A stretch of DNA of 41,377 nucleotides, taken from Magnetococcales bacterium (GTDB lineage: Bacteria; Pseudomonadota; Magnetococcia; Magnetococcales; Magnetaquicoccaceae). Under the pieces are notes generated by a model, which saw only the letters and a program-made list of their open reading frames with translations, did not search any database and was not told where the DNA came from. The DNA lies in contig JADFZD010000002.1 in assembly GCA_015232705.1 (NCBI GenBank), positions 1 through 41,377 of the forward strand. The letters are read 5' to 3'. Positions 7,079 through 40,511 of this stretch are shown here, piece after piece. Within the stretch, counting starts at the first letter, position 1; each line of letters begins with the position of its first letter. The position numbers and the translations under genes were made by a program.

Positions 7079-8113
7079 ATGCAAAAAAACGATCGCAGTC
7101 CACTTTTGCTCGGCATCGACCTGGGGACCTCCAGGACAATGATCATGTCCAATCGGGGGGACAAAGCAACGGTGCGTTCCGTTGTCGGCTATCCCAAGGA
7201 CATCATTGGCGTCAAGTTGATGCATCAATCGCACATGATTGGTGAAGAGGCAGTCAAGCGGCAATCCTATCTGAACATCCACTTCCCTTTGGAGGACGGT
7301 GTACTCAAGGATGCCAACGATCAGGCCACGGAAGCGGCCAAGTTGTTGATCAAGCACGCCATCCACCTCATGCAACCCCAGCCGGGCGAAAAGATCTACG
7401 GCGTTCTGGGCGTTCCGGCGCGCGCTTCGCTGTTCAACAAGAATCAACTCTTGAAGATCACCCACGAGCTTCTGGATCTCTCCATGGTGGTCTCCGAGCC
7501 CTTCATGGCCGCTTATGCCATCGATCAGTTGAACAACGCAATCATCATCGACATCGGCGGCGGCACGACCGACATCTGCGCCATGATGGGGACGATTCCG
7601 GGGGTCAACGAGCAGGTGACGGTGCTCAAGGCCGGAAATTACATTGATCTGGTTTTGGAAAATTTGATCCGCGAAAACCATCCGCATGTGCAGATGACCA
7701 ACAACCTGGCGCGCAAGATCAAGGAACAGTATGCCTTTGTCGGCACGCCCCAGGAGGAGATCGTTGTCAACATGCGCATTGCCGGCAAACCGGTGTCGAT
7801 CAACCTGACACGGGAGATACGCACCGCCTGCGAGTCGATCGTCAGCGAAATCGTGGAGCATCTGCAGGCATTGATCAGCGTTTTCGATCCCGAGGATCAG
7901 GAAGAGGCGTTGCAGAACATCTATCTCACCGGTGGCGGCTCCAAGATTCGCGGCCTGGAGGAGATGATCGTCGCGATGATGAAGGATTACGGTACGGTGC
8001 AGGTTCAGCAGGTGCCGGATCCGGATTACTGCGGCGTGATCGGCGCCTTGAAACTGGCAATGGAGTTGCCGCCCCAGTACTGGGATCAGGTTGGACATGT
8101 AGCCTCCGCGTAA
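7079..8113 (+). CDS. mamK: MamK, actin-like cytoskeletal protein
   Basis: LLGIDLGTSRTMIMSNRGDKATVRSVVGYPKD, IIDIGGGTTDICAM and YLTGGGSKIRGLEEM actin/Hsp70-fold motifs; internal ATG at 7079 preferred over ORF start 7025. Confidence 0.93.
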   Translation: MQKNDRSPLLLGIDLGTSRTMIMSNRGDKATVRSVVGYPKDIIGVKLMHQSHMIGEEAVKRQSYLNIHFPLEDGVLKDANDQATEAAKLLIKHAIHLMQPQPGEKIYGVLGVPARASLFNKNQLLKITHELLDLSMVVSEPFMAAYAIDQLNNAIIIDIGGGTTDICAMMGTIPGVNEQVTVLKAGNYIDLVLENLIRENHPHVQMTNNLARKIKEQYAFVGTPQEEIVVNMRIAGKPVSINLTREIRTACESIVSEIVEHLQALISVFDPEDQEEALQNIYLTGGGSKIRGLEEMIVAMMKDYGTVQVQQVPDPDYCGVIGALKLAMELPPQYWDQVGHVASA

Positions 8114-15804: not shown

Positions 15805-16692
15805 ATGAAGTATCCGCACTGTATACACTGCCGTGATCATGTGACCTGGTATTCGATCTGGTTCAACGTCTTCATGGTCACCTACAAGATCATCATGTCG
15901 CTGGTGACCAACTGCGCGGCGTTGATGGCGGACGCCTTCCACTCCATGGCCGACCTTTTGGCCAGCGTCTTCACGCTGTTCAGCCTGCGCCTCTCCGACC
16001 GTCCGGCAGACGACAAGTTCGCCTACGGCTATGGAAAGATCCAGCACATCTCGTCTGGCATCGTCGGCTTGATTCTGGTGATCGGTTCGATCTTCATCAT
16101 GGTGGATGCGCTGTTGAGCATCATCAACAACACCTTTGCCACCCCGGATCGCATGTCCCTGGTTGCGGCGGTGGTCTCGACGATCGGCAATGAGCTGATG
16201 TTTCAATATCAACGCTGCGTGGCGGTCGAGAACAACAGCCCGGCGATCATGGCCAATGCCTGGGACAACCGCTCCGATGCCTTCTCCTCGGTGGGCATGG
16301 TGGTGGGGCTGTTCTTTGCCACGGTGCTGGATTTTCCGGTGGCCGATCCTCTGGCCGCGATCATCCTGTCGATTCTGGTGATCAAGATCGGCATCGAGTT
16401 GATCATCGAGGCGGTGGATAACCTGATGGACGCCTCGCCGGATGTCGAGGAACTGGAGGGGATCTACAAGATCATTCGCGCCTTTCCGCGCATTGAGGGG
16501 ATCAACTATCTGCGTGCGCGGAGTCTGGGCGAATCGCTCTACATCGAGGCCGATCTGCGGGTGGACAAGGATTTGAAGGTGTTCGAGGGTGATCTGATTC
16601 TGGCGGCGTTGACCGATAAGTTGCGACTCAATGTGGAGAATGTCGGCAGCATGCAGTTCTATCTGACCCCGGATGTCCGGGACGCGGCTTGA
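15805..16692 (+). CDS. mamB: MamB, cation diffusion facilitator family
   Basis: 295 aa; LMADAFHSMADLLASV, FAYGYGKIQH, NRSDAFSSVGMV CDF motifs; N-terminal CXXC (CIHC). Confidence 0.93.
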   Translation: MKYPHCIHCRDHVTWYSIWFNVFMVTYKIIMSLVTNCAALMADAFHSMADLLASVFTLFSLRLSDRPADDKFAYGYGKIQHISSGIVGLILVIGSIFIMVDALLSIINNTFATPDRMSLVAAVVSTIGNELMFQYQRCVAVENNSPAIMANAWDNRSDAFSSVGMVVGLFFATVLDFPVADPLAAIILSILVIKIGIELIIEAVDNLMDASPDVEELEGIYKIIRAFPRIEGINYLRARSLGESLYIEADLRVDKDLKVFEGDLILAALTDKLRLNVENVGSMQFYLTPDVRDAA

Positions 16693-16705: not shown

Positions 16706-17275
16706 ATGAGACGTTCCATGGGGTTGGCGGAGTGGATTATGGTTGCGGGCGTCGTGGTGGTGCTGCTCATTGTGGTGGCCGCGCTGTTGCCGGAGCGTCT
16801 CTGGGAGCGCAAGGCAGCCGCGCAACCACTGGTGATGGGTCAGGCGGGAACCAATGCCATGTTTCGTCCGGGTGATCAGCAGGCGTTGCGCATGATCCCG
16901 GTGGCCGCACCCCGCACCCCGCCGGATGGCGGGGGTGGCGTCGCCGGTCTTGTGCAGTTGCAACAGGCCCCCACCGTCACCTTCAGCGGCAAGGTGCAGC
17001 AGGTTTCGGAGCAGCCGCAGAGCGACGGGCAGTTGCATCTGTGGCTGACCGCCACCAATGGCGCGGAGTCGCGAATTTCCGTGGGGCCGGGCTGGTTTTT
17101 GAAGTATCTCGGCTGCCCTCTGGCGCACGATGTGGTGGTGGATGGCGCCGGATTCTCCTATGAGAAAGTGGGCGTGACTCCTCTGATCTATGCCAAGCGG
17201 ATCCGCATCAACGGCAAGGTCTGTCAGTTGCGTAATGACGAGGGGTTTGCCCTCTGGTCCAACAAGCTGCGGTAG
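16706..17275 (+). CDS. mamS: MamS, magnetosome protein
   Basis: 189 aa; N-terminal TM plus domain FSGKVQQV...ISVGPGWFLKYLGCPL...RIRINGKVCQLRNDEGFALW; homologous segment in the MamX ORF at 29755. Confidence 0.87.
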   Translation: MRRSMGLAEWIMVAGVVVVLLIVVAALLPERLWERKAAAQPLVMGQAGTNAMFRPGDQQALRMIPVAAPRTPPDGGGGVAGLVQLQQAPTVTFSGKVQQVSEQPQSDGQLHLWLTATNGAESRISVGPGWFLKYLGCPLAHDVVVDGAGFSYEKVGVTPLIYAKRIRINGKVCQLRNDEGFALWSNKLR

Positions 17276-17282
17276 CAAGGCG

Positions 17283-17795
17283 ATGATGAGCGGTTTGCCC
17301 TTCAACTCACCCGGCATCAAGGCGGCCATGGCGGTCATTGCGCTGATCGTTGTGGTCGGCCTGGGCCTGTGGGGTCTGGGTGGCTGGGGACGGATTGCCA
17401 ACACCCTGACGGGCGAGGCGACCGGACAGGTGCAGGGCGAGGTGTTCGGTTCGATCCCCAAGCCGACGCAACCCTCCCTGCAGGAACCGGTGATGGCATT
17501 GGTGAAACCGCCCTCCGGTTCGTTGCAGCGCATGCTGGTCAAGCGCATCCCGACCATCGCCCCCGGGGCGAGCATGCCGCATCCCAGCTGGGGCCCCTGC
17601 ACCAACTGCCATCTGATCCGTGGTGGCGCGCCGCCGGGCAGTCAGCCGGCCACGCCGGTGGCCAAGGTGTGGGAGCAGGTGTCGGCCTACTACAAGGTGG
17701 GACCGCCGATCATGCCGAATTCGACCCGTCCGCATCCGCCATCGGGTCGCTGCATCAAATGTCACGATATTTTGGTGTACGTACAAACCAGATAA
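17283..17795 (+). CDS. mamT: MamT, double magnetochrome c-type cytochrome
   Basis: 170 aa; N-terminal TM, CTNCH (17598-17612) and CIKCH (17751-17765). Confidence 0.9.
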   Translation: MMSGLPFNSPGIKAAMAVIALIVVVGLGLWGLGGWGRIANTLTGEATGQVQGEVFGSIPKPTQPSLQEPVMALVKPPSGSLQRMLVKRIPTIAPGASMPHPSWGPCTNCHLIRGGAPPGSQPATPVAKVWEQVSAYYKVGPPIMPNSTRPHPPSGRCIKCHDILVYVQTR

Positions 17796-17815: not shown

Positions 17816-18721
17816 ATGGCTCAGAAAGATGTTTCCGACGATGCCGGTCTGCAAAATCGCATCACCCTGTTGGAAGATCTGTTGAAAAAGGTGGTGGAGG
17901 TGCATCTTTCCACGGCGGTGCATGTCAAGAGCCTGGATGAGAAGCTCAATCGTATCGAGATCTCTGCAGACACCATCACCGGTTTCATGCGACGCATGGA
18001 GGGGGTGTCCGACGGTGCGGTTCCGGCGGATGGCCGGATTGCCGCCGAGGTGCAGCAGGGCGTTGGTGAGGTGCTCAAGGAGGTGGCCGAACTCAAGGCC
18101 TCCTTGCAGCATTTGTTGGAAAGGACTGATCAGGCGCATCTGACGGCCTCTGCCCCGGTGGTGGAGAGGCTCGACGTTTTGTCCCAGGTGCCGGAGATGT
18201 TCGACAAATTCCAAAATCAGCAGAGCACCATCCTGCAAACGCTGGAAAAACGCATCGATCCGCGTCTGATGATCTATTTGAAGCCTTTGATCGAGATGCT
18301 GGAAGAGGAAGGGCGTCAGGCCGAGGAGATGAAGAACAACGCCTTGAAGGAGTTGAACGAGCTTTTGACCGGTCAGCGGACCGGCTCGGATCGGGAGATC
18401 TCCGAGATGTTGCAGCATGTGAGCACGGAGATGGAGAAGTGCCAGGCCGCCTTCGAGCGCACCCAGCAGGCGTTGCAGATCGTGGTGACGCCGTTCCAGA
18501 ACGTGGGGCGTCTGTTCCGCAACAATCTGGAGATCATCGTGCAGGCGCATGACCTGATGGCGCAACTGCATGAAGACTTCCCCAACTTCCTGGAAGAGAT
18601 GCGCCGCATGCAGCTCTCGCATGCCCAGCAGATGGATCGTCTGCGTCAGGAGGAGCTGATGAAGCATATGGCGTATCACGAGCAGCTCAAAATGTTGGGG
18701 ATTGCCACACCGCAGGGATAG
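17816..18721 (+). CDS. Uncharacterised soluble coiled-coil protein downstream of mamT
   Basis: 301 aa, helical Glu/Leu/Gln-rich composition, no recognised domain; 20 bp after mamT. Confidence 0.75.
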   Translation: MAQKDVSDDAGLQNRITLLEDLLKKVVEVHLSTAVHVKSLDEKLNRIEISADTITGFMRRMEGVSDGAVPADGRIAAEVQQGVGEVLKEVAELKASLQHLLERTDQAHLTASAPVVERLDVLSQVPEMFDKFQNQQSTILQTLEKRIDPRLMIYLKPLIEMLEEEGRQAEEMKNNALKELNELLTGQRTGSDREISEMLQHVSTEMEKCQAAFERTQQALQIVVTPFQNVGRLFRNNLEIIVQAHDLMAQLHEDFPNFLEEMRRMQLSHAQQMDRLRQEELMKHMAYHEQLKMLGIATPQG

Positions 18722-18775
18722 TTCGGTTGCGCTGGCGACTCGTGGACGTCATGAGATCAAGCGTGGGAGGCGGAT

Positions 18776-19369
18776 ATGTTGCAATTGATTCCTTATGGCG
18801 TGGCTGTACTGCTGGGCGGCATGCTCGGCAAGAAATTGGGCCCGGCCATCTTGAGCGAGCAGATGGGCGACCGTCCCAAAGACGCGCTGCTCGAACGGGC
18901 GTCGATCTCCCTGATCGAGATTGTCGGTGAACGGCTGATTCAGGAAGAGTCGATCATTCTGGCCACAGAGGATGTGCCACTGGACAACCGCCACGGCAAC
19001 AAGGTGCTCACCAGCGAGCACGAGTTCGTGCGCTCCGCCGAGATCAGCTTTGCCGTGGAGCGCAGCCTGGAGCGGGGCAATCAGGTGCGCTCCTCCGTGT
19101 TGCGCCTGGTGGATGGTCTGGTGGAAAAGGAGCTGAAAAAGGCTCTGCACATTGAATTCGGCACCCAGGTGACCCGTCGGGTCAAGATCCATTTTTCCAC
19201 CGAACCGGGCCAGATGGTGCGCTATCGGCTGGTGTGGAAGCAGACCTCACGGCGCGGACTCTACTATGTCAACGTCGGCACCGACCGGCATGTCATCCCT
19301 TATGTTGTTACCTTTGGCCTGTTCCACTCGGTCGAAAGTCTCCGGGAAAGCGACCATGCACCTGCCTGA
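18776..19369 (+). CDS. Uncharacterised protein with short N-terminal hydrophobic segment
   Basis: 197 aa; LIPYGVAVLLGGMLGKKLGPAIL then soluble domain; collinear with flanking genes. Confidence 0.7.
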   Translation: MLQLIPYGVAVLLGGMLGKKLGPAILSEQMGDRPKDALLERASISLIEIVGERLIQEESIILATEDVPLDNRHGNKVLTSEHEFVRSAEISFAVERSLERGNQVRSSVLRLVDGLVEKELKKALHIEFGTQVTRRVKIHFSTEPGQMVRYRLVWKQTSRRGLYYVNVGTDRHVIPYVVTFGLFHSVESLRESDHAPA

Positions 19370-22300
19370 ATCCAGCCCCCTCATCCTGGCCAAGTCGCGT
19401 CCGGATGAGCCGGATTCGCTCAATCAAGCGGTTTGCGCCCGATTTGCCGAATTTCTGTTCGAGATCGGGATGCATCCGCTGATCATTTTCGCCCTCGACG
19501 GTTCAATCATCCATTTCAACCATCAGGCGGAGTTGCTGTTCGTCACCACGGCCCGCAACCAGATCGGTCACAATATCCTCAATCTGATCGCCACGAAGGA
19601 GCGTCCAGCCTTCCTGGAGGCGATGCAGAGTGTTTACCATCAGGCCAGCGTTGTCCCGACACACAAGAGCGTCAAAAAGATCCGTACCACAGGGCAGGAT
19701 TTACGTGAGAACGCCCTGGAACTGGAAGTCAGTCTTCTGAGCATTATCAAAGGTTTGCAAGGATTCGTGGCCGCCTCGCTGACCGACATTTCTGAGCTGA
19801 AATACTCCTACACAGTCCTGTCAAACACCCTCGCCCTGGCAGAAGAGCGGCTTACCAGAGAACAGAAGGAGTTGCAACTGGCCAAACGGGCCGAACTCAA
19901 TGCCACCCTCTCGTTGCGCACTCAGCAGACCATCAACAAGTTGCTGCACATCTCGCTGGAGTCGGGTCAGTTGCACGAAAAGTTGCAGCGGGCACTCGAA
20001 AAGATCAGCAGCTTGTCGCTGATCACATCGCAGGACAGCAGCCTGGCGCTCTATCTGTACGATGAGACCACACCCAGTTTCAACCTGGTGGCCCAGCTTC
20101 CCCCAAGAACAGATATGCTTGCGGTGTGGTCCTGTCCCAATGCCTCCATGGAATGCACCACCTGCCTGATCGCGCTGCAGGAATTCAATAGGGAGATGGA
20201 TGTGTGCGGCGCGGGTCTGCACGGCAAGATCGATTTTTGCCAGCCGTTCCACTCGGATTCCCAACTGCTCGGGGCGATGCGGCTGATCTTCTCGGAAAAA
20301 GACGTGTTCTCGGTGTTTGAACATTCGATTTTTGCCTCGATCGGCAAGGTGCTGTCCTACATCATCATCCGCGCCCGCATCGATCAGGCGTTGCAGGAGT
20401 CGCAGGAGCGGGCCGAGGCGGCCAATCGCGCCAAAAGTGAATTCCTGGCCAACATGAGCCACGAGATCCGCAGTCCCCTTAACGCGATCATCGGCATGAC
20501 CGATCTGGTGTTAAGCACCCCACTGTCGCGCGAGGAGATGCTCGTCAACCTGGAGATCGTGCGCTCCTCGTCGCACGCCCTGCTGGATCTGATCAACGGC
20601 ATTCTCGATCTCTCCAAGATCGAGGCTGGACATTTCCAGTTGGAGTCCCTCACGTTCGACCTGCTGGGTCAACTGGAAGGGGCGTGCGAGATGCTGGCGA
20701 TCAAGGCGCATCAGAAGGGGTTGAGCCTTTACACCCACATTCCCCCGGATCTGCCCCGCTCCCTGACCGGCGATCCCCTGCGTTTGAAGCAGATCATCAT
20801 CAATCTGATCAACAACGCCATCAAGTTCACCAGTGCCGGGGAGATCGTGTTGACGGTCGAACCGGTCGCCGGGCACGATGCAACCGGCGATCCGCAACAG
20901 TATCTGCATTTTTCCGTCAGCGATACCGGGATCGGCATCCCCGAAGAGATGCAGCGGAAGATCTTTCAGAGTTTTGTTCAGGCCGATGGTTCGATTGCCC
21001 GCAAATTCGGCGGAACCGGACTGGGACTGACCATCTCGCGCCATCTGGTGGAAATGATGGGCGGGGACCTGCTGGTGGAAAGCCAGGAGGGTCAAGGCAG
21101 TCGTTTTCATTTCACCATTCCGTTTGGCTCGGGCCAGGACTCCGAACCACCCGAACCCTGGATGAAGCAGCGGTGTGACACGCCGGGGGACAGCGCCCAT
21201 TTCTCACTGACCGGGAGACGAATTCTTCTGGCGGACTCCCACCCGACAGGCGCGAAGATCGTCGGCCAACTGCTGCGTTTTCACGGTGCCCAGGTCACCA
21301 CCGTCGAGAGTCGTGAAGCCTTCGAGGCGGCGTTGGAGCAACAAATCCTCACGCCCTTCGATCTGCTGATCGTCGACGAGACGATCGTGCCTGGGTGCGA
21401 CTGTCTGGCACGCGCCCCTTACGAGTTCTACCAGGCCCGCATCATCGTGATGATTTCCTCGCACCTGACCTCCAGAAATTTTAAGCTGGAAGGGGAGTTG
21501 CGGAAGGTGGTGATTTTCAAGAAACCGATCCGCCAGTTCTTTCTGCTCAAAAAGATTCAACGGCTTCTCCACCCCTCCACGGACGCCAACCCGGAAGAGG
21601 AGTCCGGGACCAGCGCTGTCGTGCTGCCCAAGGCCAGCCAACCTCTGGAGATCCTCCTCGTCGAGGATCTGCCCGCCAACCAGAAACTCGCCCAGGATAT
21701 TCTCACCCTGCAGGGACACCGGGTGACCCTCGCCAATAACGGTGTCGAGGCTCTGGAGATCCTCAAAAAGGGGGCGCCTGTGGACCTGATTCTCATGGAT
21801 CTGCAAATGCCGATCATGGATGGCTTCGAGACCACACACCGCATCCGCAGCGGCGATCCGGCCGAAGTCGGCAACCCCCAGGTGCCGATCGTCGCGGTTT
21901 CCGCCATGGTGATGATGAACGAAAAGTTCAAGTGCTACGAGATCGGCATGAACGGCTTTCTGCTCAAACCCTATCAGACGCACGAATTGGTGGAAGCGGT
22001 TGCCGGATATTCCAAAATCAAAAAGCAGACCACGCGCAAGGCCCCGGTCGGCGAGATCGTCCTGAGTGCCGTGGAGACCGACGAGGAGACGTTGCGGCGC
22101 TTCAAACAGACCTTCGTCGTCGAGGTTGCCGATCATCTGCGCCAGTTGAATCAATCGCTGCTGCGCACCGATCTGGGAAGTGTGGTCCGGGAGGGCAACT
22201 GGTTGCGCACCATGGCCGGTTATATCGGTGCCAATCGTCTGGCCTCGCACGCGATCCGCTTGACCGGCCAGGCGGAAATGGAAGCCTGGGAAGATGCCCT

Positions 22301-22373
22301 GACCATGGTTCCGAACCTGGAACAGTATGTGGAAGCCCTGGTTCAACACCTTACCCACGAGAGAGTAGCATGA
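19356..22373 (+). CDS. Hybrid sensor histidine kinase: PAS - GAF-like - HisKA - HATPase_c - REC - REC - degenerate Hpt
   Basis: [20 protein letters not shown]-box; [34 protein letters not shown] lid; receiver motifs [10 protein letters not shown] and [14 protein letters not shown]-terminal Hpt-like [16 protein letters not shown]. Confidence 0.9.
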
Positions 22374-22792
22374 AAATCCTGATTGCCGATGACGAGTTGA
22401 ACAACCGCAAACTGCTGCGCGACTATCTGAAGAGTTTTGCCCATTGTGACATGGTGAGCGATGGCAAAGCGGCCCTGGAACTGTTCACCGCCGACATGGA
22501 AGATGGCGAACCGTATGACCTGGTGTTGCTGGACATCATGATGCCGGTCATGGATGGTCAAAAGGGCTTGGCGCGCATTCGCGCTACGGAAAAACGCCTC
22601 ACCGAAAACAAGGAGGGTTACAAGGAGACCCCAATCATCATGGTGACCGGCATGGACTCCTCGTTGCAGGCGATGCAGGCCTATTTCAAGGGTGGCTGTT
22701 CCGACTATCTCACCAAACCGGTCACCCGCCCGGCACTGTTGGAGAAGTTGCGCAAGTTCAATCTGATTGCCGAAGGCGAAGGGGAGGATTGA
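22370..22792 (+). CDS. CheY-like single-domain response regulator
   Basis: 140 aa; ILIADDE, LVLLDIMMPVMDG, MVTGM, LTKPV; ATGA overlap with kinase stop. Confidence 0.92.
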   Translation: MKILIADDELNNRKLLRDYLKSFAHCDMVSDGKAALELFTADMEDGEPYDLVLLDIMMPVMDGQKGLARIRATEKRLTENKEGYKETPIIMVTGMDSSLQAMQAYFKGGCSDYLTKPVTRPALLEKLRKFNLIAEGEGED

Positions 22793-22794
22793 CC

Positions 22795-23727
22795 ATGTCC
22801 GCCTCAATGCATGCCCGAAGAAAACAGGACCGGGTCTTCAGTGGGCAACCCATGGAACTGGATGGCGTGCTGGGAAATGCCCTGGATGTCAGTGACATCG
22901 CGGTGTTTCTGGTCTTTCCGATCCGACAGTCGTTCGAAGTGGGTCACAAGGGGCTGTTGAAATTCTCCTTGAAGAATCAAGACATCGAAGAGTGGGTGTC
23001 GGTGGCGCGCGTCACCCCTTCGGGGGTCTCCCTGGTCTCCCTGGAGACGCCAAGCAACTTGAGCAAACTGTGCGCCTCCTCGCGCAGCGGCATCAAATAT
23101 GTGCAGCACACCGAGGAAGAGAGCACCATCTGGTTGCGGGGCGAGTTGTCGGCCGACTTCTGGGACGAGTTCGCCCAGATCTATCGCGAGCTTCCACCGC
23201 GTTGGCGCTATCGGCTCCACTTCCAGAACGTCACGGGGGTGACCCCTTCGGGCGTGGCCATGCTGCTGCATCTGGAGGCGCACAATCAGGGCAGCGGGGA
23301 TGACATCCAGATCTTTAATTGCAGCAAGGAGATTCTGGATGCCCTGTCGCCTCTGAACGTGCCCGGTATCGGCATCACCCTGCACGGTGTTGATTTGCAA
23401 GGGGATGATGCGCATCGATTCGAGGTGGAGACGATTCGTGAAATGGGTCAACCGACCACGGTCAAGATTCGTGTCGCCCGGATGTTCGATTACAACTGTC
23501 GCAACGAGTTTGCCAAGCTCTATCGCTATCGTGGCCGGAATACCCACTACATCCTCGATTTTCAGAATACGGTGCATCTCGGCAAGGCGGCCTTCGGCAC
23601 CATGTTGTTGCTGAACCAGCACAACCGTGAAAAGCAGGGGGAACCGATCCGGATGATCCACTGCAGCCCGTACATCAAAGGTCTGTTGCATCAAATGAAA
23701 TTTGAGCATTTTTTCGAGATTGAATGA
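22795..23727 (+). CDS. Protein with N-terminal PilZ-like segment and two STAS-like (anti-anti-sigma) segments
   Basis: STIWLRGELSADFWDEFAQIYRELPPRWRYRLHFQNVTGVTPSGVAMLLHL and TVKIRVARMFDYNCRNEFAKLYRYRGRNTHYILDFQNTVHLGKAAFGTMLLL are internally similar STAS-type units. Confidence 0.7.
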   Translation: MSASMHARRKQDRVFSGQPMELDGVLGNALDVSDIAVFLVFPIRQSFEVGHKGLLKFSLKNQDIEEWVSVARVTPSGVSLVSLETPSNLSKLCASSRSGIKYVQHTEEESTIWLRGELSADFWDEFAQIYRELPPRWRYRLHFQNVTGVTPSGVAMLLHLEAHNQGSGDDIQIFNCSKEILDALSPLNVPGIGITLHGVDLQGDDAHRFEVETIREMGQPTTVKIRVARMFDYNCRNEFAKLYRYRGRNTHYILDFQNTVHLGKAAFGTMLLLNQHNREKQGEPIRMIHCSPYIKGLLHQMKFEHFFEIE

Positions 23728-25850
23728 ATCGTTCCGCTCGCTTGGTTCCGGGGGTCGTCATGCTTGATGAGAATAATTCCCAGTTGAAGCTGTTTGTCGA
23801 GGAGTCCCGGAACCGGGTGCAGCTCTGTCTGGATGATTTCGACACCCTGGCGCAGAGTGGACCGGAAATACGGGCCGCTGCCTTTGAACGGTTGCTGCGC
23901 ACCACGCGCGGCATCGGCGGTTCTGCCCGGTTTCACGCCCTGACGCAGGTTGTCCGTTTGTGTCAATCCCTGGAGTCCTTTCTGGGCCGCTTTCGTGCCC
24001 ATCTGCTGAATGCACGCCCCGAGTTCATCTCGGTGGTCGTGTTGGCAATGAAGAAGCTCAGTCAATTGCTCGACAATCCGCTGCTCACGCCCCCCCTCTC
24101 CATTGATCCGGAGATTCTCGCCATCCAGTCCATGCTCGCCGCCCATGCCGATCCGCCGGAGTTCAATCTCGCCGATTATCCGCAGGCGCTGGCCATGGCC
24201 GTGCGCCAGGGGCTCGACTTCTACTCCATTCACATGCCTCTGGGTGGCGCTCCGGAGGCGAATCGTCAGCAGTTCTTGCAAATCAAGACCGCCGTCGAAG
24301 CAGTGGCCACCCTCGTTGCCGCCAAACCGGATCTGGGCAGTCGCTTCGAGTGGCGGGATGATCTGCCCGGTGGCATGGTGCGCCTGTTGTTGAGCACGGT
24401 CCTGCCCGGCGAGATCCTCCACGGATTGATTCAGTTGCCGCAGGAGCAGATTGTCCGGTTGGAGATTCCGGAGGCGCTCTCGCAAGCCGTAAACGCCGAG
24501 ATCGAGCGGCAGGCGCGGGCGGAGGCCGAGGAGCGGACCAGGCTCGCAGCGCCGGTCGAGGAGGATGCGCTGGCCGAGACGCAACTTGGCGAGGTGGAAG
24601 AGCAAGTTCGCCTGAGCGAGGCGGGCGCAAATTCTCATACGGATCCTCTGGAAGATACACAACTGGGTGAGGCCGAAGCCCGGGCTCGCCAGGCGCATAT
24701 CGAGGAGATGCGGCGTCAGGAGGCGTTGCAGGAGGAGCAACGCCGCAAGGCGGCCTACGACGCGGCAGAGCGGGAGCGTCTGGAACAGGCACGCCGCCAG
24801 GACGAGGAGCGGCAACGTCAGGAGGCCGCCGCACAAGCTGAGGCACGCAACCGGCAGGCTGCACAACGTGCACAACGGCGACGCTGGATCTATGGCGGAT
24901 TGGCCGCTGCCGGCGTGCTGGTTGTCGTGGCTCATCAAACCGGGATCGTGTCGCTGCCCGGAGAGGAGAACAGGCTCTCTTCGACCATCCAGATCTCCAA
25001 GGAGTTGCGCAGCCAGAGTGCTCCAAACACCAACGAGAGTGCAACCGTCAAACCGGCGCCCGTGATCGCGCCTCCCCCTGCCAGCAAGCCCGCTGTCGTG
25101 TCGGCTGCCGGGCAGTCCTCTGCCGCGCCTCCGCCGGTGGTCAAGCCACCCGAGCCGACGTTGCCCAAAGAGCCGCCTGCCGCGGCTCCGCCGGTGGTCA
25201 AGCCACCCGAACCGGCGTTGCTTAAAGAAACGCCTGCCGTCCCGCCGTCTGCGTCGACGGAGAGTCGCCAGGGTGAGCCAACCCCATTCTCACCGTTGAT
25301 GAAAGAGCAGAACAATCTGCCCGATGTGGATGTCAAAGCAGAGGAACAGGCCAGCCGCTCTGCCGCGCCGCCGCTTCCCGTCAAGCCGGAACTCCCAGCA
25401 GAGCCAACATCCTGGCAGAGCGCCTTCGCGCGCCACGATACACCCATGGTTCGGCTGACCAAGGAGTCTTACGAGAGCTTCAAACCCGCCAAGAATACCA
25501 AACACGGCAGCATGCGTGTGCGGCGCACCCCGGATGGCGACCTGCTCTTCTCCATTGCCGACATGATGGGCCATACGGCCATGCGCCAGAAGGAGAGGTT
25601 CCAGCTGACGCCGGAGTCGATGACCGAGTTGCGTCTGGTGTTTCAGGTGGAGCGCGGTCACGCCTACATGTTCGCGTTGGATCGCGACGGTGAAACGGTC
25701 ATCCCGAAGGAATTCTGGAGCGAGTTCTCCAAGGTCAGCAAAAAGGCGGTCAGTGTCAGCCGGGTGATGAAGGAGAGTCCGGAGGGGGTGCATTTGAAGG
25801 ATTTGACCGCGTTGACCATGTCCTACATTCTGAGAACCACTGCACCATGA
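23724..25850 (+). CDS. Single-TM protein with CheA-P1/Hpt-like N-terminus, coiled coil, Pro/Ala-rich linker and unknown C-terminal domain
   Basis: 708 aa; FERLLRTTRGIGGSARFHALTQVVRLCQSLESFL resembles Hpt helix; ERRRQ-rich coil, TM WIYGGLAAAGVLVVVAHQTG; start overlaps preceding stop. Confidence 0.7.
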   Translation: MNRSARLVPGVVMLDENNSQLKLFVEESRNRVQLCLDDFDTLAQSGPEIRAAAFERLLRTTRGIGGSARFHALTQVVRLCQSLESFLGRFRAHLLNARPEFISVVVLAMKKLSQLLDNPLLTPPLSIDPEILAIQSMLAAHADPPEFNLADYPQALAMAVRQGLDFYSIHMPLGGAPEANRQQFLQIKTAVEAVATLVAAKPDLGSRFEWRDDLPGGMVRLLLSTVLPGEILHGLIQLPQEQIVRLEIPEALSQAVNAEIERQARAEAEERTRLAAPVEEDALAETQLGEVEEQVRLSEAGANSHTDPLEDTQLGEAEARARQAHIEEMRRQEALQEEQRRKAAYDAAERERLEQARRQDEERQRQEAAAQAEARNRQAAQRAQRRRWIYGGLAAAGVLVVVAHQTGIVSLPGEENRLSSTIQISKELRSQSAPNTNESATVKPAPVIAPPPASKPAVVSAAGQSSAAPPPVVKPPEPTLPKEPPAAAPPVVKPPEPALLKETPAVPPSASTESRQGEPTPFSPLMKEQNNLPDVDVKAEEQASRSAAPPLPVKPELPAEPTSWQSAFARHDTPMVRLTKESYESFKPAKNTKHGSMRVRRTPDGDLLFSIADMMGHTAMRQKERFQLTPESMTELRLVFQVERGHAYMFALDRDGETVIPKEFWSEFSKVSKKAVSVSRVMKESPEGVHLKDLTALTMSYILRTTAP
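25121..25234 (+). repeat. Two tandem 57-bp units in proline-rich linker coding sequence
   Basis: Encodes AAPPVVKPPEPTLPKEPPA / AAPPVVKPPEPALLKETPA; boundaries 25121-25177 and 25178-25234. Confidence 0.8.
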
Positions 25851-25860
25851 GGCCAAACGC

Positions 25861-26688
25861 ATGAAAACCATCGATTTTGGTATTGCCCGCATCGCCCATG
25901 TCGTCTGGGAGTCGGAGCTGGAAGAGCTGGTCCAGCAGCGTCGCAAGACGGTGCATCTGACCAGTCACGAAGATTGCGAACTGGGTCTGTGGCTGCATGG
26001 CGAGGGGATCCGCGAACTGTACCATCTCTCCCCAATTCGTCAACTGGTCGAGATCCACGAACGGTTTCATCGCGCTGCCTTGCATCTGTTGTCGATCTAC
26101 GCCACAGGTACGCCGGAGCAGATCGAACACGAAATGCATCTGGTACGTTCACTCAGCCGGGACATCGTCTACTTCATCACCGAGGCCGAACTCGATTATC
26201 TGGAACACAAGCCGCTGGAGGATTTCTCGACCCATCCGTTCAAGACGATGATCCATCGTCTGTTCAATATCCACATTCCGGGTCATGAAGATACCAAACC
26301 ATACGGCATCCTGGAGGTCAGTCACGCGCGCCTGATGCACCTGCGCTGGTCCAGGCAACTGCTGAAGGCGTTTCAGCACTGGGGCCGGGATGCGGTGCTG
26401 GAACCGTCCGAGGCCTGTTTTGTCGGCATCTGGGTCCGGGATGTCGGCAATCGCAACGGGCAGCACGAGGCGTTGATTCGCACACTGGATGACAAGCATC
26501 AACGCTTCCATCAGCGTGCCGAAGAGACGATCCGGCTGTTGCGCCGCAAAAATTTTCGCAGATCCGAAGAGGCTTACCAGGAGGTGGTATTGCTCGGGCG
26601 GGAGGTGCTGTATCTGTTGACGCGTATCGAAATGGCGTTCCTGCAATCCGGAGAGGTGACCAAACCGGTCAATCTGTTCGGGCATTGA
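25861..26688 (+). CDS. Tandem CZB (chemoreceptor zinc-binding-like) domain protein
   Basis: Two units each with H..W, C-x-x-G-x-W and HxxxH: IAHVVW/CELGLWL/IHERFH and LMHLRW/CFVGIWV/KHQRFH. Confidence 0.78.
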   Translation: MKTIDFGIARIAHVVWESELEELVQQRRKTVHLTSHEDCELGLWLHGEGIRELYHLSPIRQLVEIHERFHRAALHLLSIYATGTPEQIEHEMHLVRSLSRDIVYFITEAELDYLEHKPLEDFSTHPFKTMIHRLFNIHIPGHEDTKPYGILEVSHARLMHLRWSRQLLKAFQHWGRDAVLEPSEACFVGIWVRDVGNRNGQHEALIRTLDDKHQRFHQRAEETIRLLRRKNFRRSEEAYQEVVLLGREVLYLLTRIEMAFLQSGEVTKPVNLFGH

Positions 26689-26749
26689 AGCCCGTGACCG
26701 CCTCCAAGGAGTCCAGAAAGCGGAACATGGCAGGATCCATCTTCGGGAG

Positions 26750-26788
26750 GGCGATACGGAAGCCGCGTGTGTCGGCTTCCGTATCGCC
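26750..26788. terminator. Perfect 16-bp inverted repeat between convergent genes, candidate bidirectional terminator
   Basis: GGCGATACGGAAGCCG - 7-nt loop - CGGCTTCCGTATCGCC between the CZB gene (+) and feoA (-); T tract weak. Confidence 0.7.
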
Positions 26789-26795
26789 TTGATTC

Positions 26796-27065
26796 TCAAA
26801 GCGAGGAGACCACGATGTTCCTGGCATCTTCATTCCGGATGGAGAGTCGATAACCGAGAATCGTATAAATGCGCGGATCCCCGAACGGCGCCTTGGTTTC
26901 CAGGGAGATCTCCTTGCCTCTCACCAGCCCCAGGGCCATGAGGCGCTTTTTGCAAAGATCATCGCCTTTGAGTGCCTCGATGCGGGCCGTGCTGCCAACC
27001 GGCAGTTTGTCGAGGGTCATGTCGAGGAGCTGTTCTGTCATCTCTTGGGAGGGTGAACGGGGCAT
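26796..27065 (-). CDS. feoA: FeoA-family ferrous iron transport protein
   Basis: 89 aa; LDKLPVGSTARIEALKGDDLCKKRLMALGLVRGKEISLETKAPFGDPRIYTILGYRLSIRNEDARNIVV. Confidence 0.9.
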   Translation of the reverse strand: MPRSPSQEMTEQLLDMTLDKLPVGSTARIEALKGDDLCKKRLMALGLVRGKEISLETKAPFGDPRIYTILGYRLSIRNEDARNIVVSSL

Positions 27066-27106
27066 TGGGTGTTCCTTCTAAAGCCAATGGATGTGTTTTA
27101 AGTTAA

Positions 27107-27121
27107 TGAGAAAGAGTATCA
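27107..27121. promoter_or_regulatory. Candidate Fur-box-like site between feoA and the hemerythrin gene
   Basis: TGAGAAAGAGTATCA matches 11 of the 14 defined positions of the 7-1-7 core TGATAATNATTATCA by eye, in an AT-rich divergent intergenic region. Confidence 0.35.
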
Positions 27122-27182
27122 TTTAATTTTCATGGTGTCAAGTATATTCCACGGTTTTGAGTAAAATTCTTTCGAGCTCTCC

Positions 27183-27917
27183 ATGTTAAAGATCATTTGC
27201 GCACAACAAGAGATCGAATTTGAGAAGAATCTCAAACTGGGAATTTCTGGCATCGATGAACAACATGAGCGATTGTTCATTCTCTGTCATGCCGTGATCC
27301 AATCAAACCATGCAAACGCCCTGCAGATCGAGGCGATACTGCTGGAGATCGAATCCTACATCTCGGAACATCTGGCCTATGAGGAGGAGATTCTGCATCG
27401 ATCAAGTCCGTTGATTCTGTTGCAGCATAAGCGATTGCATGACCAGTTCCGGAAACAATACGTTCAGCTCAACAGAAGATTGCTGTCGGTACGCGACGAT
27501 GTCGTGGCTTTGCAGAGTCTTGCCGTCGAAATCGCCACCTTGTTGCAGGAGTGGTTGTGCCAGCACATCATGAAGGTGGATCGGCAGCATCGAAGCCACT
27601 TTCTGGGCACGCATGGCGTCAAGTCGCGCGCTCCACGCATGAAGGTCCATGTGCGGGCCTTGTTGGAGATTTCCGGAGGTCGCGGTCTCACCGGTACGGT
27701 GGTGGATGTCAGCGATAGCGGCGCACTGCTTTTTTTCCAGGCGGTTCCGTCTTGGATCCAGGCTGGGGAAACCGCCCTGTTGCATATCATCCCTTTGGAG
27801 CAAAGCGACAGAATGCCATGCAAAATTGTTGCGGTTTCCAAGGATGATATTCGTATTGCCTTTTTGGAAAGAGAGCAGTGTGATCTGTATAGCGCCTTGG
27901 TCGCCTATCGAAAGTAG
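27183..27917 (+). CDS. Bacteriohemerythrin - PilZ domain fusion
   Basis: Hemerythrin motifs GIDEQHERLF, HLAYEEEILH, HKRLHDQF, HIMKVDRQH; C-terminal PilZ-like RAPRMKVHVRALLEIS...GTVVDVSDSGALLFF. Confidence 0.82.
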   Translation: MLKIICAQQEIEFEKNLKLGISGIDEQHERLFILCHAVIQSNHANALQIEAILLEIESYISEHLAYEEEILHRSSPLILLQHKRLHDQFRKQYVQLNRRLLSVRDDVVALQSLAVEIATLLQEWLCQHIMKVDRQHRSHFLGTHGVKSRAPRMKVHVRALLEISGGRGLTGTVVDVSDSGALLFFQAVPSWIQAGETALLHIIPLEQSDRMPCKIVAVSKDDIRIAFLEREQCDLYSALVAYRK

Positions 27918-28010
27918 TCATACGCATGGACCGGTGGCATCCGGGAAATTCCACTGGATGAAGAGTGACTTTCACGTCATTGTTGTTTCTAAGGAAGGAG
28001 TGTGACAACC

Positions 28011-28487
28011 ATGCATTTCACAAATCTGGCGGACGTGATCCGCGAAGCGATTCGGGAAACCGAAGCCGCTTTTTTCACCATGGATATCGGCATCAAGGCT
28101 GGTCCCGCAGTCACCACTTCAGCGCACGAACCCTATGTGCCACCCCAGGCGGATGTCACCGCGATCCTTGCTTTCAACGGCAGCATCGAGGGTGGTGTGC
28201 ATCTCTCCGCGCCATTCCATTCTGCCGTGGCGCTGGCGGCTGCCTTCTCCGGTGAGGAGATTTCAGACTTCAACGGAACCGCCAAGGATGCCATCGGCGA
28301 ATTGGCCAACATCATCGCCGGCGCGGTCAAGAGTCGCATCTGCGATGATCAGATCCAGTTGACCCCTCCGCGTGTCGTGGTCGGACGGGATCACTTGGTC
28401 GGCATCACCAAACGGCAAGCCAGCACAAAGTGCTACTTTAAAACCGACAGCGGACCGTTTCTGGTCGAGGTGTTTTTTTCACACTGA
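28011..28487 (+). CDS. CheX-like CheY-P phosphatase
   Basis: CheC/CheX signature DAIGELANIIAGAVKSRI...P; single-domain 158 aa protein. Confidence 0.8.
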   Translation: MHFTNLADVIREAIRETEAAFFTMDIGIKAGPAVTTSAHEPYVPPQADVTAILAFNGSIEGGVHLSAPFHSAVALAAAFSGEEISDFNGTAKDAIGELANIIAGAVKSRICDDQIQLTPPRVVVGRDHLVGITKRQASTKCYFKTDSGPFLVEVFFSH

Positions 28488-28889
28488 TTGTTTGAGCAGC
28501 ATGCGCAGATTTGCTCCTGCGACCAGCATGGCCAACCCGACAGGTCGCCTGCTGCTGGGCTGGATGGAGATGAATTCCTTGCTTTTCTCATCTCCTTCTA
28601 AAACCCGCACAGAGCAACCGGGGCGCACAACGTCTGCCTTGTGCGTCTCGCATAATGGGCAAAGCCGATTGGCAGTCCTGACCGATCGTCAGGGGGCAAC
28701 GCCTTGAGGCGCATCTGGCATCTACCAGCGAAGCACTCAGGTGATCATGGTGGACGGTGGGCGACCATAAACCCAATGCGAGAGAGAAGATCCTGACGGA
28801 TACGCTTCCCGTCCATTGTTTATCGCGATCCTGTATTGCACAATCTTTTTTCGTGTTCTTTTGAAGAGCAACCCTGCTGGAGTGGTGCC

Positions 28890-29717
28890 ATGGTTCACAA
28901 TCACGCCTCGTTTTCTGCAGCATCCTGTACGCGCTGTCATAGAAAACCCAAAAATCCTGACGAGGAGTGTATCGAAGCTTGCACCACGCCCGACGACAGA
29001 ACGCCCCTGCAGAAAAATCTGTTGTTCTGGTTGCTCGGCACGGTTGGATTGGCCATTATTTTGATTGTGCTGGCAATTTATCGATCCAGCAGCTTCTCGC
29101 CTCCCAACTCTCCAAGCCAAAACAACGCAAACCAGGCTTTTCCCGCCGCCTATGCCACCCCTGTAGCAGGACAAATTGCAATCGGACCCCTCACGCCGCA
29201 AGAGGCGCGTTCCATATTGTTCATGCGTGAAGAGGAAAAACTGGCGCGGGATGTCTATCAGGAGATGCATCGCCTGTGGGGTCTGTCGATGTTTGTGAGC
29301 ATCTCGCGTGCCGAACAGCGACATATGGATGCCGTAGGACAACTCATTCAGCGCTATGGACTCGCGGACCCGGCAGAACAAAATCGTCATGGCTTCTTTG
29401 TCGACCCACATCTGTCTCAGTTGTATCAGCAATTGATGCAACAAGGACAACGATCGGTGATCGATGCCTTGCGCGTAGGCGCCTTGATTGAGGAGGTGGA
29501 TATTCTTGACCTGGAAAATGCCATCAAGGAAACCAGCAAACAGGATATCATTCAGGTCTACTCCCTGATTCAGCGCGGATCATTCAATCATCTGCGTTCG
29601 TTTGCCCACGGCCTGGAATTGCAGGGCATAGCCTATGCTCCGGTCAAATTGTCCGCACAATCGTTAGATACGATTCTGCACAGTCCCATGGACACGGGTT
29701 TGTTCAGAAATCCGTAA
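28890..29717 (+). CDS. DUF2202 ferritin-like domain protein with N-terminal 4-Cys motif and TM segment
   Basis: EEEKLARDVYQEMHRLWG..SISRAEQRHMDAV..ALRVGALIEEVDILDLENAI..RGSFNHLRSF DUF2202 signature; N-terminal CTRCHRKPKNPDEECIEAC; TM LLFWLLGTVGLAIILIVLAIY; ATG 28890 preferred over TTG 28836. Confidence 0.8.
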   Translation: MVHNHASFSAASCTRCHRKPKNPDEECIEACTTPDDRTPLQKNLLFWLLGTVGLAIILIVLAIYRSSSFSPPNSPSQNNANQAFPAAYATPVAGQIAIGPLTPQEARSILFMREEEKLARDVYQEMHRLWGLSMFVSISRAEQRHMDAVGQLIQRYGLADPAEQNRHGFFVDPHLSQLYQQLMQQGQRSVIDALRVGALIEEVDILDLENAIKETSKQDIIQVYSLIQRGSFNHLRSFAHGLELQGIAYAPVKLSAQSLDTILHSPMDTGLFRNP

Positions 29718-29754: not shown

Positions 29755-30597
29755 ATGAAGCAGCTTCAGTGGCTTATGGCGGTCAGTATCGCCTTCAGTC
29801 TGGTACTGTTTTTTCTGTCAGTTTTTGCCGAAGACCCTTGGGAGGATCATGTTTACAATAAAGCGCCTCCCATCGCCGCTGGCATGCTGGCACCGCATCT
29901 GGATGGTCGGGAGCGCATGACCTGTTCCAGTTGCCATGAAATCATCGCCAACAATCCAAACAGTGGTATCGCCTCCACCCCTTCGCTGGTGGCTGGCACA
30001 CCCCCGGTTCCATCGCATGCGGATGGACGCGACCAGATGCCGTGCGCCAATTGCCATCGCATTCTGCCTGCCGACCAAACACCTGCGACCATGCCTGACG
30101 CCGCTGCTCCCGCCAAACCCGCCGCGGTGATGAGCGCCCCGCTTGAAATCGCGCAACCGGAAACCAACCGGATTCCCGTCCCGCAACATGTGGCCCTGCC
30201 GCAAACGTCGCAGCCACCCAAGACTCCGGCTGCGGCAGCCCTGGACCCGGAATGGCATGAACGGTTTATCCCCACCCGTTTTCAGGGAAAAATCGTGCGT
30301 ATTGTTGAGAATTCAGTGCAATCCGGTCGCATCAACACCCATATCCTGGTCTATGACGGCATCAATCAGGCCGCCTGGATCAACCTTGCCCCGGATTGGT
30401 ATCTCAACCAGCAAGGATGCCATATAGGCGTGGGGCTGTTTGTCAAAGGTACGGCCTTCAAGGAGACAGGATCCAAACAAGATGCCTTGCGCTACGCTCG
30501 CAGTTTTTCCGTCAATGGGCAGTCTTGCATGTTGCGTGACAAACATTTGCGTGGCGCCTGGACCCGAAACGATTGGCAGGGTAAGGACGAAGAATGA
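29755..30597 (+). CDS. mamX: MamX, double magnetochrome plus MamS-like domain
   Basis: 280 aa; CSSCH (29923-29937) and CANCH (30043-30057); C-terminal domain similar to MamS; directly followed by mamZ. Confidence 0.88.
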   Translation: MKQLQWLMAVSIAFSLVLFFLSVFAEDPWEDHVYNKAPPIAAGMLAPHLDGRERMTCSSCHEIIANNPNSGIASTPSLVAGTPPVPSHADGRDQMPCANCHRILPADQTPATMPDAAAPAKPAAVMSAPLEIAQPETNRIPVPQHVALPQTSQPPKTPAAAALDPEWHERFIPTRFQGKIVRIVENSVQSGRINTHILVYDGINQAAWINLAPDWYLNQQGCHIGVGLFVKGTAFKETGSKQDALRYARSFSVNGQSCMLRDKHLRGAWTRNDWQGKDEE

Positions 30598-32572: not shown

Positions 32573-34066
32573 CCCAGATTGTCCATTAGGCAGTCTGCCC
32601 CACTGGCATGAAGGCGGGAAGGTTGGCTGCATTAGCCCATAGTCCGGTGAACCAGGCTCGTTTGCGGCGTGGGACGGAGAGCATAAGGAGTTGTTGTTCA
32701 CCACTTTTGCGCCACGATCCGCCGATGGCCAGGACCAAACCGTGCAGGGTGGACAGGGTGTGCTGCACCTTTGTCCGCATCACTGTTTGACGAAATAGGC
32801 TCATCAGGTTGTAGGCCAGCATGGCGAACCCCAACGCTGCCTCGGTGGCATAGAACTCATTGAGATTGAAGGCCTCCAGACCGAAGTCAGCCTTCAATTC
32901 CTTGATCCGATTCTCGCAATCGGCTCGCCCCCGATAGGTGCGCCACACCTCGACCATCGGCAGTTCGAGGGAGGTCACGAATGCCCCGTAGCGCCAACCT
33001 TGCGCATCTGGATCATCGCCGAACAATGAGAGCATCTTGCCCTGAGCCTCTTTGCGCTTGACCGATTGCCGTACTACAACCACACGGCGTGACTGCTGCC
33101 AGCTTTGAGCTTGATAAGTGATCTCGGTGAGTTCCAGTCCCGGAGCCAGCGCCCACCAACCCGTGGCTCGGTAAATCTCCCTCTGCAAAGGTCGGGTCAG
33201 GCGAGCTGCAATGATGTAGGCAATGCGCTTTTCTTCCAGCGTCAACAAGATCTTTTCATCAAAAAACCCGCTGTCGGCGCGTAACAACCCTACTGTCTTG
33301 TCACCCAGGTTGTGCAAGGTGGATTCGAGGAATGACAAGGTATTGTTGGCGCTGCTGGTATTGCTCGGACGCAACCAGAAGTTCGCCACCATTCGAGCCT
33401 CGGCGACAAAAGCAAATAAGGGATGATGGCTTGGCCGTCCCCGTCGTCCTGGATTGTAGCCACGGGCCGCGCCTTCTTGTTCGCCGTGGCGCGTGATGAC
33501 CGTGGAATCCAGATCCAGCGTCACCCGCTTGAGAGTGGTTATCCTATCGAAAAACCAACGATAAACAGACGCCTGCACCCGTTCATTGGTGAGCATGTCG
33601 AACCGCTCGAACAACCGAACAATGGCCTTATGACCCGCTACCCGATCCCAACCAAAAAGCCGGGTAAGCGTGTGGTCGAAACGAACCGTTTCGGCATGAA
33701 CAAAACGGGAAGCGCCACACCAGATCGCCACAATAAATTGTTCGATCAACTGAAGCGGCGGATAGCCCCGATTCGATCCCGGCGGCGGCAATTCCCACTT
33801 CTGGGCCGCTTCCCGGAAGCCCATGCTGTCCAGCATGCGTTTCAGAAGCGCCAGCCCACCCCAGGCCGTCACCTCACGGTCGCTGAAGACAACCGAAAAC
33901 CCCTCTCCAGAAAGTGGATATTGGCTCATCGCAGCATTATATCATGATGTTATATAATGATTTTTCATTAATGATATCCATTAGAGACCAACTCCTTTTT
34001 GCCCCTGCGGATGCACATCTCAGACGACGTCATTATCCAGCCTTTCCGGCTAATGGACAATCCGGG
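32573..34066 (-). mobile_element. IS1380-family insertion sequence, apparently complete, 1494 bp with 5-bp target duplication ATGAA
   Basis: Terminal inverted repeats CCCAGATTGTCCATTAGGCAG / CCCGGATTGTCCATTAGCCGG; ATGAA at 32568-32572 and 34067-34071. Confidence 0.88.
32586..33929 (-). CDS. IS1380-family transposase
   Basis: 447 aa; LDLDSTVITRHGEQEGAARGYNPGRRGRPSHHPLFAFV..LLRADSGFF..YRGRADCENRIKELKADFG. Confidence 0.88.
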   Translation of the reverse strand: MSQYPLSGEGFSVVFSDREVTAWGGLALLKRMLDSMGFREAAQKWELPPPGSNRGYPPLQLIEQFIVAIWCGASRFVHAETVRFDHTLTRLFGWDRVAGHKAIVRLFERFDMLTNERVQASVYRWFFDRITTLKRVTLDLDSTVITRHGEQEGAARGYNPGRRGRPSHHPLFAFVAEARMVANFWLRPSNTSSANNTLSFLESTLHNLGDKTVGLLRADSGFFDEKILLTLEEKRIAYIIAARLTRPLQREIYRATGWWALAPGLELTEITYQAQSWQQSRRVVVVRQSVKRKEAQGKMLSLFGDDPDAQGWRYGAFVTSLELPMVEVWRTYRGRADCENRIKELKADFGLEAFNLNEFYATEAALGFAMLAYNLMSLFRQTVMRTKVQHTLSTLHGLVLAIGGSWRKSGEQQLLMLSVPRRKRAWFTGLWANAANLPAFMPVGQTA

Positions 34067-40445: not shown

Positions 40446-40511
40446 GGCTGTGACCGCTTGTGTTTGCCAGTGGCTGAGAGGATAGCTCGTATCCGTTAAT
40501 CCATGCCCTGA

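Follow-up and report, generated by a model that had tools for sequence, protein, structure and literature searches.

The window, by which the whole analysed stretch of 41,377 nucleotides is meant, corresponds to C222, one of the 382 contigs of a fragmented genome (2.05 Mb, 57.8% complete), and it was compared with a set of 48 genomes of its class. Along it lie genes for MamD, MamE, MamK, MamA, MamQ, MamB, MamS, MamT and MamX, as assigned with NCBIfam models, some of which matched below the cutoff. The named relatives retrieved by a scan of GTDB with g19, one of the genes described below, belong to Magnetococcales and are MAGs, Ca. Magnetaquicoccus inordinatus UR-1 among them, and the organism is therefore regarded as a magnetotactic coccus. 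Magnetosome genetics has mostly been worked out in Magnetospirillum, whose clusters differ.

In the first-pass annotation the interval between mamT and mamX was read as one continuous block of sensory genes. A signalling block does exist there, but its limits are narrower than first drawn: the conserved core comprises seven same-strand genes, g15 to g21, at 17816-26688 (Table 1). The short spacing and frequent overlaps reported downstream of mamT hold up to the CZB gene, the successive distances from mamT through g21 being 20, 54, -14, -4, -4, -4 and 10 bp, a spacing which suggests a single transcript from mamT to g21. The collinear run stops at 26688, because feoA is encoded on the minus strand and is set apart from the CZB gene by a strong hairpin; this hairpin is a probable bidirectional transcription end. 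A scan for sigma-70 promoters returned sites no commoner than in shuffled sequence. The genes feoA, hemerythrin-PilZ and CheX, formerly counted as members, are ruled out of the core by strand and distribution: G028 and G034 are the only genomes with the hemerythrin-PilZ gene directly behind g21, while the nearest relatives of CheX (75-80%) sit on contigs other than those carrying mamQ, and a CheX paralogue occurs on C324 of the window's genome. CheX is separated from mamX by a DUF2202 gene, which also precedes mamX in G029.

Table 1. Features of the mamT-mamX region and the reference gene mamB (positions are those of the window).
Feature	Position	Strand	Remarks
mamB	15805..16692	+	NCBIfam CDF_MamB 362 bits, over cutoff; reference gene of the inheritance test
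mamT	17190..17795	+	NCBIfam MamT 207 bits (above cutoff); anchors the block upstream
g15	17816..18721	+	Soluble coiled-coil protein, 301 aa; orthologues directly after mamT in 18 genomes
g16	18776..19369	+	197 aa; conserved beta-rich domain (EEVPLDNRFGN..SEHEF motif) and a hydrophobic N-terminus
g17	19356..22373	+	Hybrid histidine kinase; Pfam HisKA-HATPase-REC(atypical)-REC-Hpt(no His)
g18	22370..22792	+	Single-domain response regulator, complete acidic pocket; Pfam REC 1.7e-20
g19	22789..23727	+	PilZ-STAS-STAS; Pfam STAS_2, AlphaFold and Foldseek, alignment
g20	23724..25850	+	Pseudo-Hpt membrane protein; one predicted TM at about 391-411, Pro-rich linker
g21	25861..26688	+	Tandem CZB; Pfam CZB, 2 stretches
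Hairpin	26751..26789		Strong inverted repeat between convergent g21 and feoA; -36.8 kcal/mol, z -5.5
feoA	26796..27065	-	Pfam FeoA 7.5e-20; outside the collinear block
Hemerythrin-PilZ	27183..27917	+	Lineage accessory; Pfam
CheX	28002..28487	+	Window-specific copy; Pfam
DUF2202 protein	28836..29717	+	Pfam 2.1e-63; start codon uncertain
mamX	29755..30597	+	Downstream anchor; NCBIfam MamX 328 bits, below cutoff of 400

The domains previously read from the open reading frames were all recovered by Pfam (HisKA, HATPase, REC and Hpt; a single REC; STAS_2; a marginal Hpt; two CZB; FeoA; hemerythrin with PilZ; CheX). The gene list was thus right as to the kinase, receiver, STAS, Hpt-like and CZB proteins, but left g15 and g16 within the interval undescribed, and these prove to be magnetosome-cluster genes. 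The C-terminal half of g15 is very conserved in the alignment. The product of g16 occurs in 28 further genomes of the class, among them G037, which has the size of M. marinus MC-1, and in many clusters that lack the block; its domain 47-190 was modelled by AlphaFold with mostly high pLDDT, and the fold search was counted as giving no match (best PDB TM-scores ≤0.37). Profiles of g15 and g21 compared with the PDB gave nothing beyond designed coiled coils with poor E-values. The conservation of both g16 and g15 equals that of mamS and mamQ, and this, together with the operon-like continuity with mamT, would suit a block that steers magnetosome assembly (e.g. vesicle number or chain placement) through contacts with Mam proteins, without the motor described below. 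However, many clusters manage without g17-g21 and contacts with Mam proteins are not known, and such a role is considered improbable.

In the hybrid kinase g17 the HisKA, HATPase and second receiver domains are canonical and the first receiver is atypical; some orthologues have an extra N-terminal receiver. Phosphorelay residues are kept in the HisKA domain (phospho-His) and second receiver (Asp pocket) of g17, and in the Asp pocket of g18, the most conserved protein of the block, with orthologues 67-88% identical to the window copy. The phospho-accepting His is missing from the Hpt-like domains of both g17 and g20. For g20 the earlier label of a CheA-P1-like membrane protein is therefore borne out only as far as Hpt likeness goes (the Pfam match is marginal), since that His is absent from all orthologues but the most divergent, in G006; the C-terminal domain of g20 is conserved and has no recognised fold. 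Similarly, g19 does contain the two STAS domains first assigned to it, but also a PilZ domain missed both by that reading and by Pfam. Its AlphaFold model (mean pLDDT 87.5) was matched by Foldseek to c-di-GMP PilZ structures (8u0i, TMt 0.73; Alg44, BcsA, MapZ) and to STAS domains of the SpoIIAA/RsbV type. The PilZ motif RxxxR is found in nearly all orthologues, the second motif being degenerate, mostly DxNxxA versus D/NxSxxG. The Ser before Gly is kept in STAS1 and missing in STAS2, and neither a cognate RsbW-type kinase nor a PP2C phosphatase was found within the block by Pfam. The start codon of g19 is likely the ATG at 22795.

The tandem CZB protein g21 has two complete 3His-1Cys sites (H13, C39, H66, H70 and H160, C186, H213, H217), and all eight predicted zinc ligands (8/8) are invariant in 12 orthologues. 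CZB domains respond to zinc and redox state, and mediate redox taxis in Salmonella (PMC13370339). In relatives, a protein of the ODP di-iron oxygen-sensor family with a kinase, as well as a hemerythrin, are encoded beside the block, ODP being present in G029 and UR-1. Judged from these domains, the sensing of redox, metal or oxygen state proposed at first remains plausible; the coupling of that state to magnetosome formation or magnetotaxis, proposed with it, is conjectural.

Such sensors would be compatible with a branch of magneto-aerotaxis, in which g18, once phosphorylated, would act like CheY at the flagellar motor switch, with redox and oxygen state reported by the sensors, so as to tune swimming in compass-bearing cells. 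Besides the CZB precedent, g18 is a canonical CheY-like receiver, CheX adjoins the block in the window, ODP serves as a chemotaxis oxygen sensor in Treponema (PMC7666581), and the island-encoded Amb0994 affects the magnetic response of AMB-1 (PMC6056624). However, Pfam found none of the chemotaxis core (receptor, CheA, CheW) nor CheR or CheB within the block, the kinase is a HisKA hybrid, and CheX is an addition of the window only, with its closest kin outside magnetosome contigs; on balance this reading seems unlikely. No DNA-binding domain was recognised by Pfam in the block proteins either, and a role of the block as a transcriptional controller of the mam genes was put aside on that ground.

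Behind mamT, the core is present, complete or partial, in 18 Magnetococcales genomes besides that of the window, which makes 19 block-bearing genomes in all. The g15-g20 set is found after mamT in 17 of these 18, mostly in the same order; the exceptions are G018 (rearranged and dispersed), G019 (split over two contigs), G006 (without g17 at the site) and G032 (truncated, g15-g17). The CZB gene follows in 12 genomes, sometimes behind inserted genes. Besides that of the window, 17 genomes of the class have a full-length g19, and mamQ is present in every class genome that has it. A scan of GTDB r220 (one genome per species, 84,980 species) for g19 returned 13 loci, all of them in Magnetococcales, the scan being based on peptide patterns from one query, so that very divergent relatives could escape it.

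Block presence corresponds to a single split (100/100) in the MamB tree of 35 genomes, as against a mean of 11.9 changes when presence was shuffled. In the RecA tree, by contrast, it is scattered, with 7 changes, at least 4 of which are forced by strong branches, and a single block clade is rejected (p-AU 2e-33); since several RecA branches are long, only strongly supported splits were used. For example, the block is present in G044 but not in the other members of its genus, and it is missing from G023, G025 and G035, which belong to block-bearing genera. Errors in MAG binning could account for single mismatches of this kind, but not for the pattern. Moreover, the protein distances of g15, g18 and g19 track those of MamB (rho 0.88-0.90; 0.83 for mamS). 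Because of the single MamB split, the scattered RecA pattern and these distances, the block is considered to travel with the magnetosome cluster rather than with its host. No relative devoid of mam genes was found to carry the block, whether sought by the g19 scan, by co-presence with mamQ or on the MamB tree. Judging from synteny after mamT, the range of g19 and the trees, the core at 17816-26688 is the distal part of a mamAB-type operon in one magnetosome-cluster lineage of magnetotactic cocci. It is true that genomic islands carry unrelated genes, and that deletion of hemerythrin-like genes of the MSR-1 island gave no phenotype (PMC3197154); a passive hitch-hiker with no magnetosome role is nevertheless very improbable, as the core is kept across the clade together with MamB down to about 57% identity, with catalytic residues and metal ligands retained.

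Sixteen of the 19 block-bearing genomes also harbour a Zorya-like ZorA-ZorB-ZorC trio. Fifteen of these contribute the ZorB proteins that form a clade of their own (support 100/99), restricted to block-bearing genomes and apart from the canonical group; the sixteenth is UR-1, which also has the trio. None of the 29 non-block genomes has a member of this clade (Fisher p 4e-10 for the association, a value that overstates independence, the genomes being related). Genes of the ZorB type share a contig with mamQ in 19 of 35 genomes versus about 0.7 expected, by a rough estimate from the lengths of contigs, and the ZorB distances follow those of MamB (rho 0.94; reached by 0 of 5000 permutations). 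The ion-channel Asp of ZorB is kept in 15/15 proteins of the clade. The trio directly follows g20 or g21 in G006, G027 and G033, and lies on the far side of mamD, at the opposite end of the cluster, in G028, G031, G030, G036, G015, G018, G022 and UR-1. In G028, whose MamB is 96% identical, ZorA starts about 0.5 kb past mamD, a spot that falls off the contig in the window. No match to ZorB or other Zorya genes was obtained in the window's own genome, a result of little weight in an assembly 57.8% complete, and the window's contig ends before the expected Zor position; from its relatives, the window's own cluster would be expected to include the trio. The shared inheritance of block and trio within one island may reflect linkage, genomes of one clade not being independent. 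This linked motor had been missed at first pass.

ZorA, ZorB and ZorC all match defence models strongly, and these clusters are known to undergo horizontal transfer (PMC6783814), so that trio and block might be seen as a defence or stress module guarding the island. Against this, no ZorD was found next to the trio where contigs extend past ZorC, the genes that follow there being feoB, CDF or mam genes, whereas two canonical Zorya loci of the same class (L160 and L161; in G036 and G029) carry ZorD; the trio is one lineage tracking MamB, and the sensor cassette is unlike known Zorya genes. A defence module is accordingly judged quite improbable. The trio's ZorA open frames measure about 1160-1630 aa versus about 780-800 in the canonical loci of the same class, and the ZorA tails of block genomes exceed the canonical ones by roughly 350-850 residues, enough, if helical, to reach further into the cell.

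In the MC-1-size genome G037 (4,719,581 bp) and its relative G038, a giant ZorA-like protein (1718 aa in G037) is encoded directly after mamT. With the ZorA-like and ZorB-like proteins identified by PADLOC models, the order in these genomes is mamT, ZorA-like (MotA/ExbB), ZorB-like (MotB), g16 and a 1.4-kaa protein with C-terminal PilZ, and the channel acid of the ZorB-like protein is Glu instead of Asp. The g15 HMM matches the C-terminal tip of these ZorA-like tails (iE 3e-9 in G037, 1e-10 in G038). In a profile-profile comparison the tail tip was the best of 31 windows, with E 3e-4 and a probability of 39.5%, a weak match between two coiled coils; g15 as a part of the ZorA tail is only suggestive and was not adopted.

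The explanation that accounts best for these observations, held tentatively and at somewhat less than an even chance, is that the mamT-linked cassette controls the ion-driven ZorA-ZorB(-ZorC) motor of the cluster at the protein level. The cassette would act on proteins rather than on genes. The hybrid kinase g17, which retains its catalytic residues, may charge the receiver g18, and g20 could provide a docking site at the membrane, because its Hpt lacks the usual phosphate-accepting residue. Judging from their domains, g19 would feed in the state of the second messenger (c-di-GMP), and g21 that of zinc or redox. The most likely target would be the ZorA-ZorB(-ZorC) complex of the same clusters; the PilZ, receiver and MotAB-like parts would then represent the control logic of flagellar stators applied to a motor with a long coiled-coil tail. 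The ZorA tail could reach or position magnetosomes, and g15, resembling the tail tip of the MC-1-type ZorA, may be an adaptor. The further proposition, that a ZorAB-type motor whose coiled-coil tail is giant, and which was either recruited from Zorya or is ancestral to it, moves, tethers or senses magnetosomes under control of the mamT-linked block, is speculative and rather less likely.

The set of genes delineated here is a defined, lineage-specific group of candidates, co-inherited with crystal-forming genes, for magnetosome positioning or sensing in cocci, and a motor-like partner of a magnetosome cluster is unexpected. If the proposed control holds true, defence and an organelle would have a motor of the phage-defence type in common; should the model be wrong, the limits and membership of the block are still set and a missed trio is renamed.

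Parts of this locus have been noticed before. In UR-1, Koziaeva et al. (2019) found "11 genes downstream of mamT", which were described only as "hypothetical and chemotaxis proteins", the gene immediately behind mamT being given as possibly phage-related. At a separate place, flanked by mamD-like and feoA1, they noted a trio annotated as EH-signature, MotB and apolipoprotein, for which Zorya was not named (PMC6783814). The locus is the same: contig RXIU01000008 (G020:C525) carries g15-g20 and g21 in order, and the possible phage-related gene occupies the place of g15. In contrast to the present analysis, that study gave no domain analysis, followed the distribution only to close relatives and, in its main text, did not link the trio to the genes downstream of mamT (PMC6783814). 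Signalling, chemotaxis and hemerythrin-like genes between mamAB and mamCXZ were reported for Magnetofaba australis IT-1 and MC-1 by Morillo et al. 2014 (PMC3934378); the MC-1-size genome shares g16 and the ZorAB-like genes with the block-type clusters, but g17-g21 are absent from the stretch read. No publication joining magnetosome and Zorya was found, the subscription literature lying mostly outside the search. Both the mamT-downstream block and the Zorya-like trio had been noted in earlier work, but unconnected.

Two known systems invite comparison. YcgR-like PilZ proteins are stator regulators, and here too the genes for a PilZ protein and a MotAB-like complex occur in one cluster; g19, however, has STAS-STAS in place of the YcgR-N domain. 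In Zorya, ZorA and ZorB assemble 5:2 into an ion-driven complex that has a tail in the cytoplasm and in which ZorB binds peptidoglycan (PMC11890865). While the trio differs from type I Zorya in having no adjacent ZorD, a longer ZorA and a separate clade, it shares with it a MotA-like ZorA with a coiled-coil tail, a ZorB with the channel Asp and an EH-signature ZorC.

In the four magnetosome clusters L055, L062, L063 and L067 (L, locus), the signalling block is absent, and genes for a ZorA-like protein (482-2231 aa) and a ZorB-like protein are present between mamT and g16. At the magnetosome-linked loci carrying the whole trio, feoB, CDF or mam genes are found downstream, where the contig runs on beyond ZorC, in place of ZorD, the helicase-nuclease of defence Zorya. 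The C-terminal-PilZ proteins encoded 3' of g16, in clusters other than that of the window, reach ∼1350-1420 aa. The ODP family listed near the block is a di-iron oxygen sensor family.

Features of the window and of related loci
Feature	Coordinates	Strand	Location
Gene without Pfam match	window 5277-6998		mamE-mamK interval
DDE transposase (DDE_Tnp_1_4)	window 32586-33929	-	shortly past mamZ
IS66 transposase	window 36325-37959	+	shortly past mamZ
Putative Topoisomerase-III-like ORF and sigma-54-activator-like fragment	window 38214-41369	-	right end
Large protein, C-terminal PilZ domain	L055:4687-8949; L063:4193-8458; L058:786-4826		downstream of g16
ZorA-like and ZorB-like genes	L055:10057-16143 (genome G037); L062; L063; L067		mamT-g16 interval
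Zorya-like ZorA-ZorB-ZorC trio	L150:4119-12173 (genome G028); L151; L152; L153; L154; L155; L156; L157; L046:11723-17905; L053:4231-9986		within or adjoining magnetosome clusters
ODP-family gene, histidine kinase and hemerythrin or hemerythrin-PilZ gene	L036:4551-7540; L048:3477-5775, 7657-8112		close to block

The CheX gene adjoining the magnetosome cluster (window 28002-28487) is one of two copies in this genome, the other (C324:7203-7676) being 77% identical. Separately, two full-length RecA genes occur in G020, the genome of Ca. Magnetaquicoccus inordinatus UR-1 (contigs C212 and C10), and in genome G023 (C1 and C52), reflecting either duplication or contamination.

The calls at 38214-41369 derive from sequence reading alone. 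As for the gene between mamE and mamK, its position corresponds to that of maq1 in UR-1, and it exhibits partial similarity (43-66%) to the UR-1 gene at that position.
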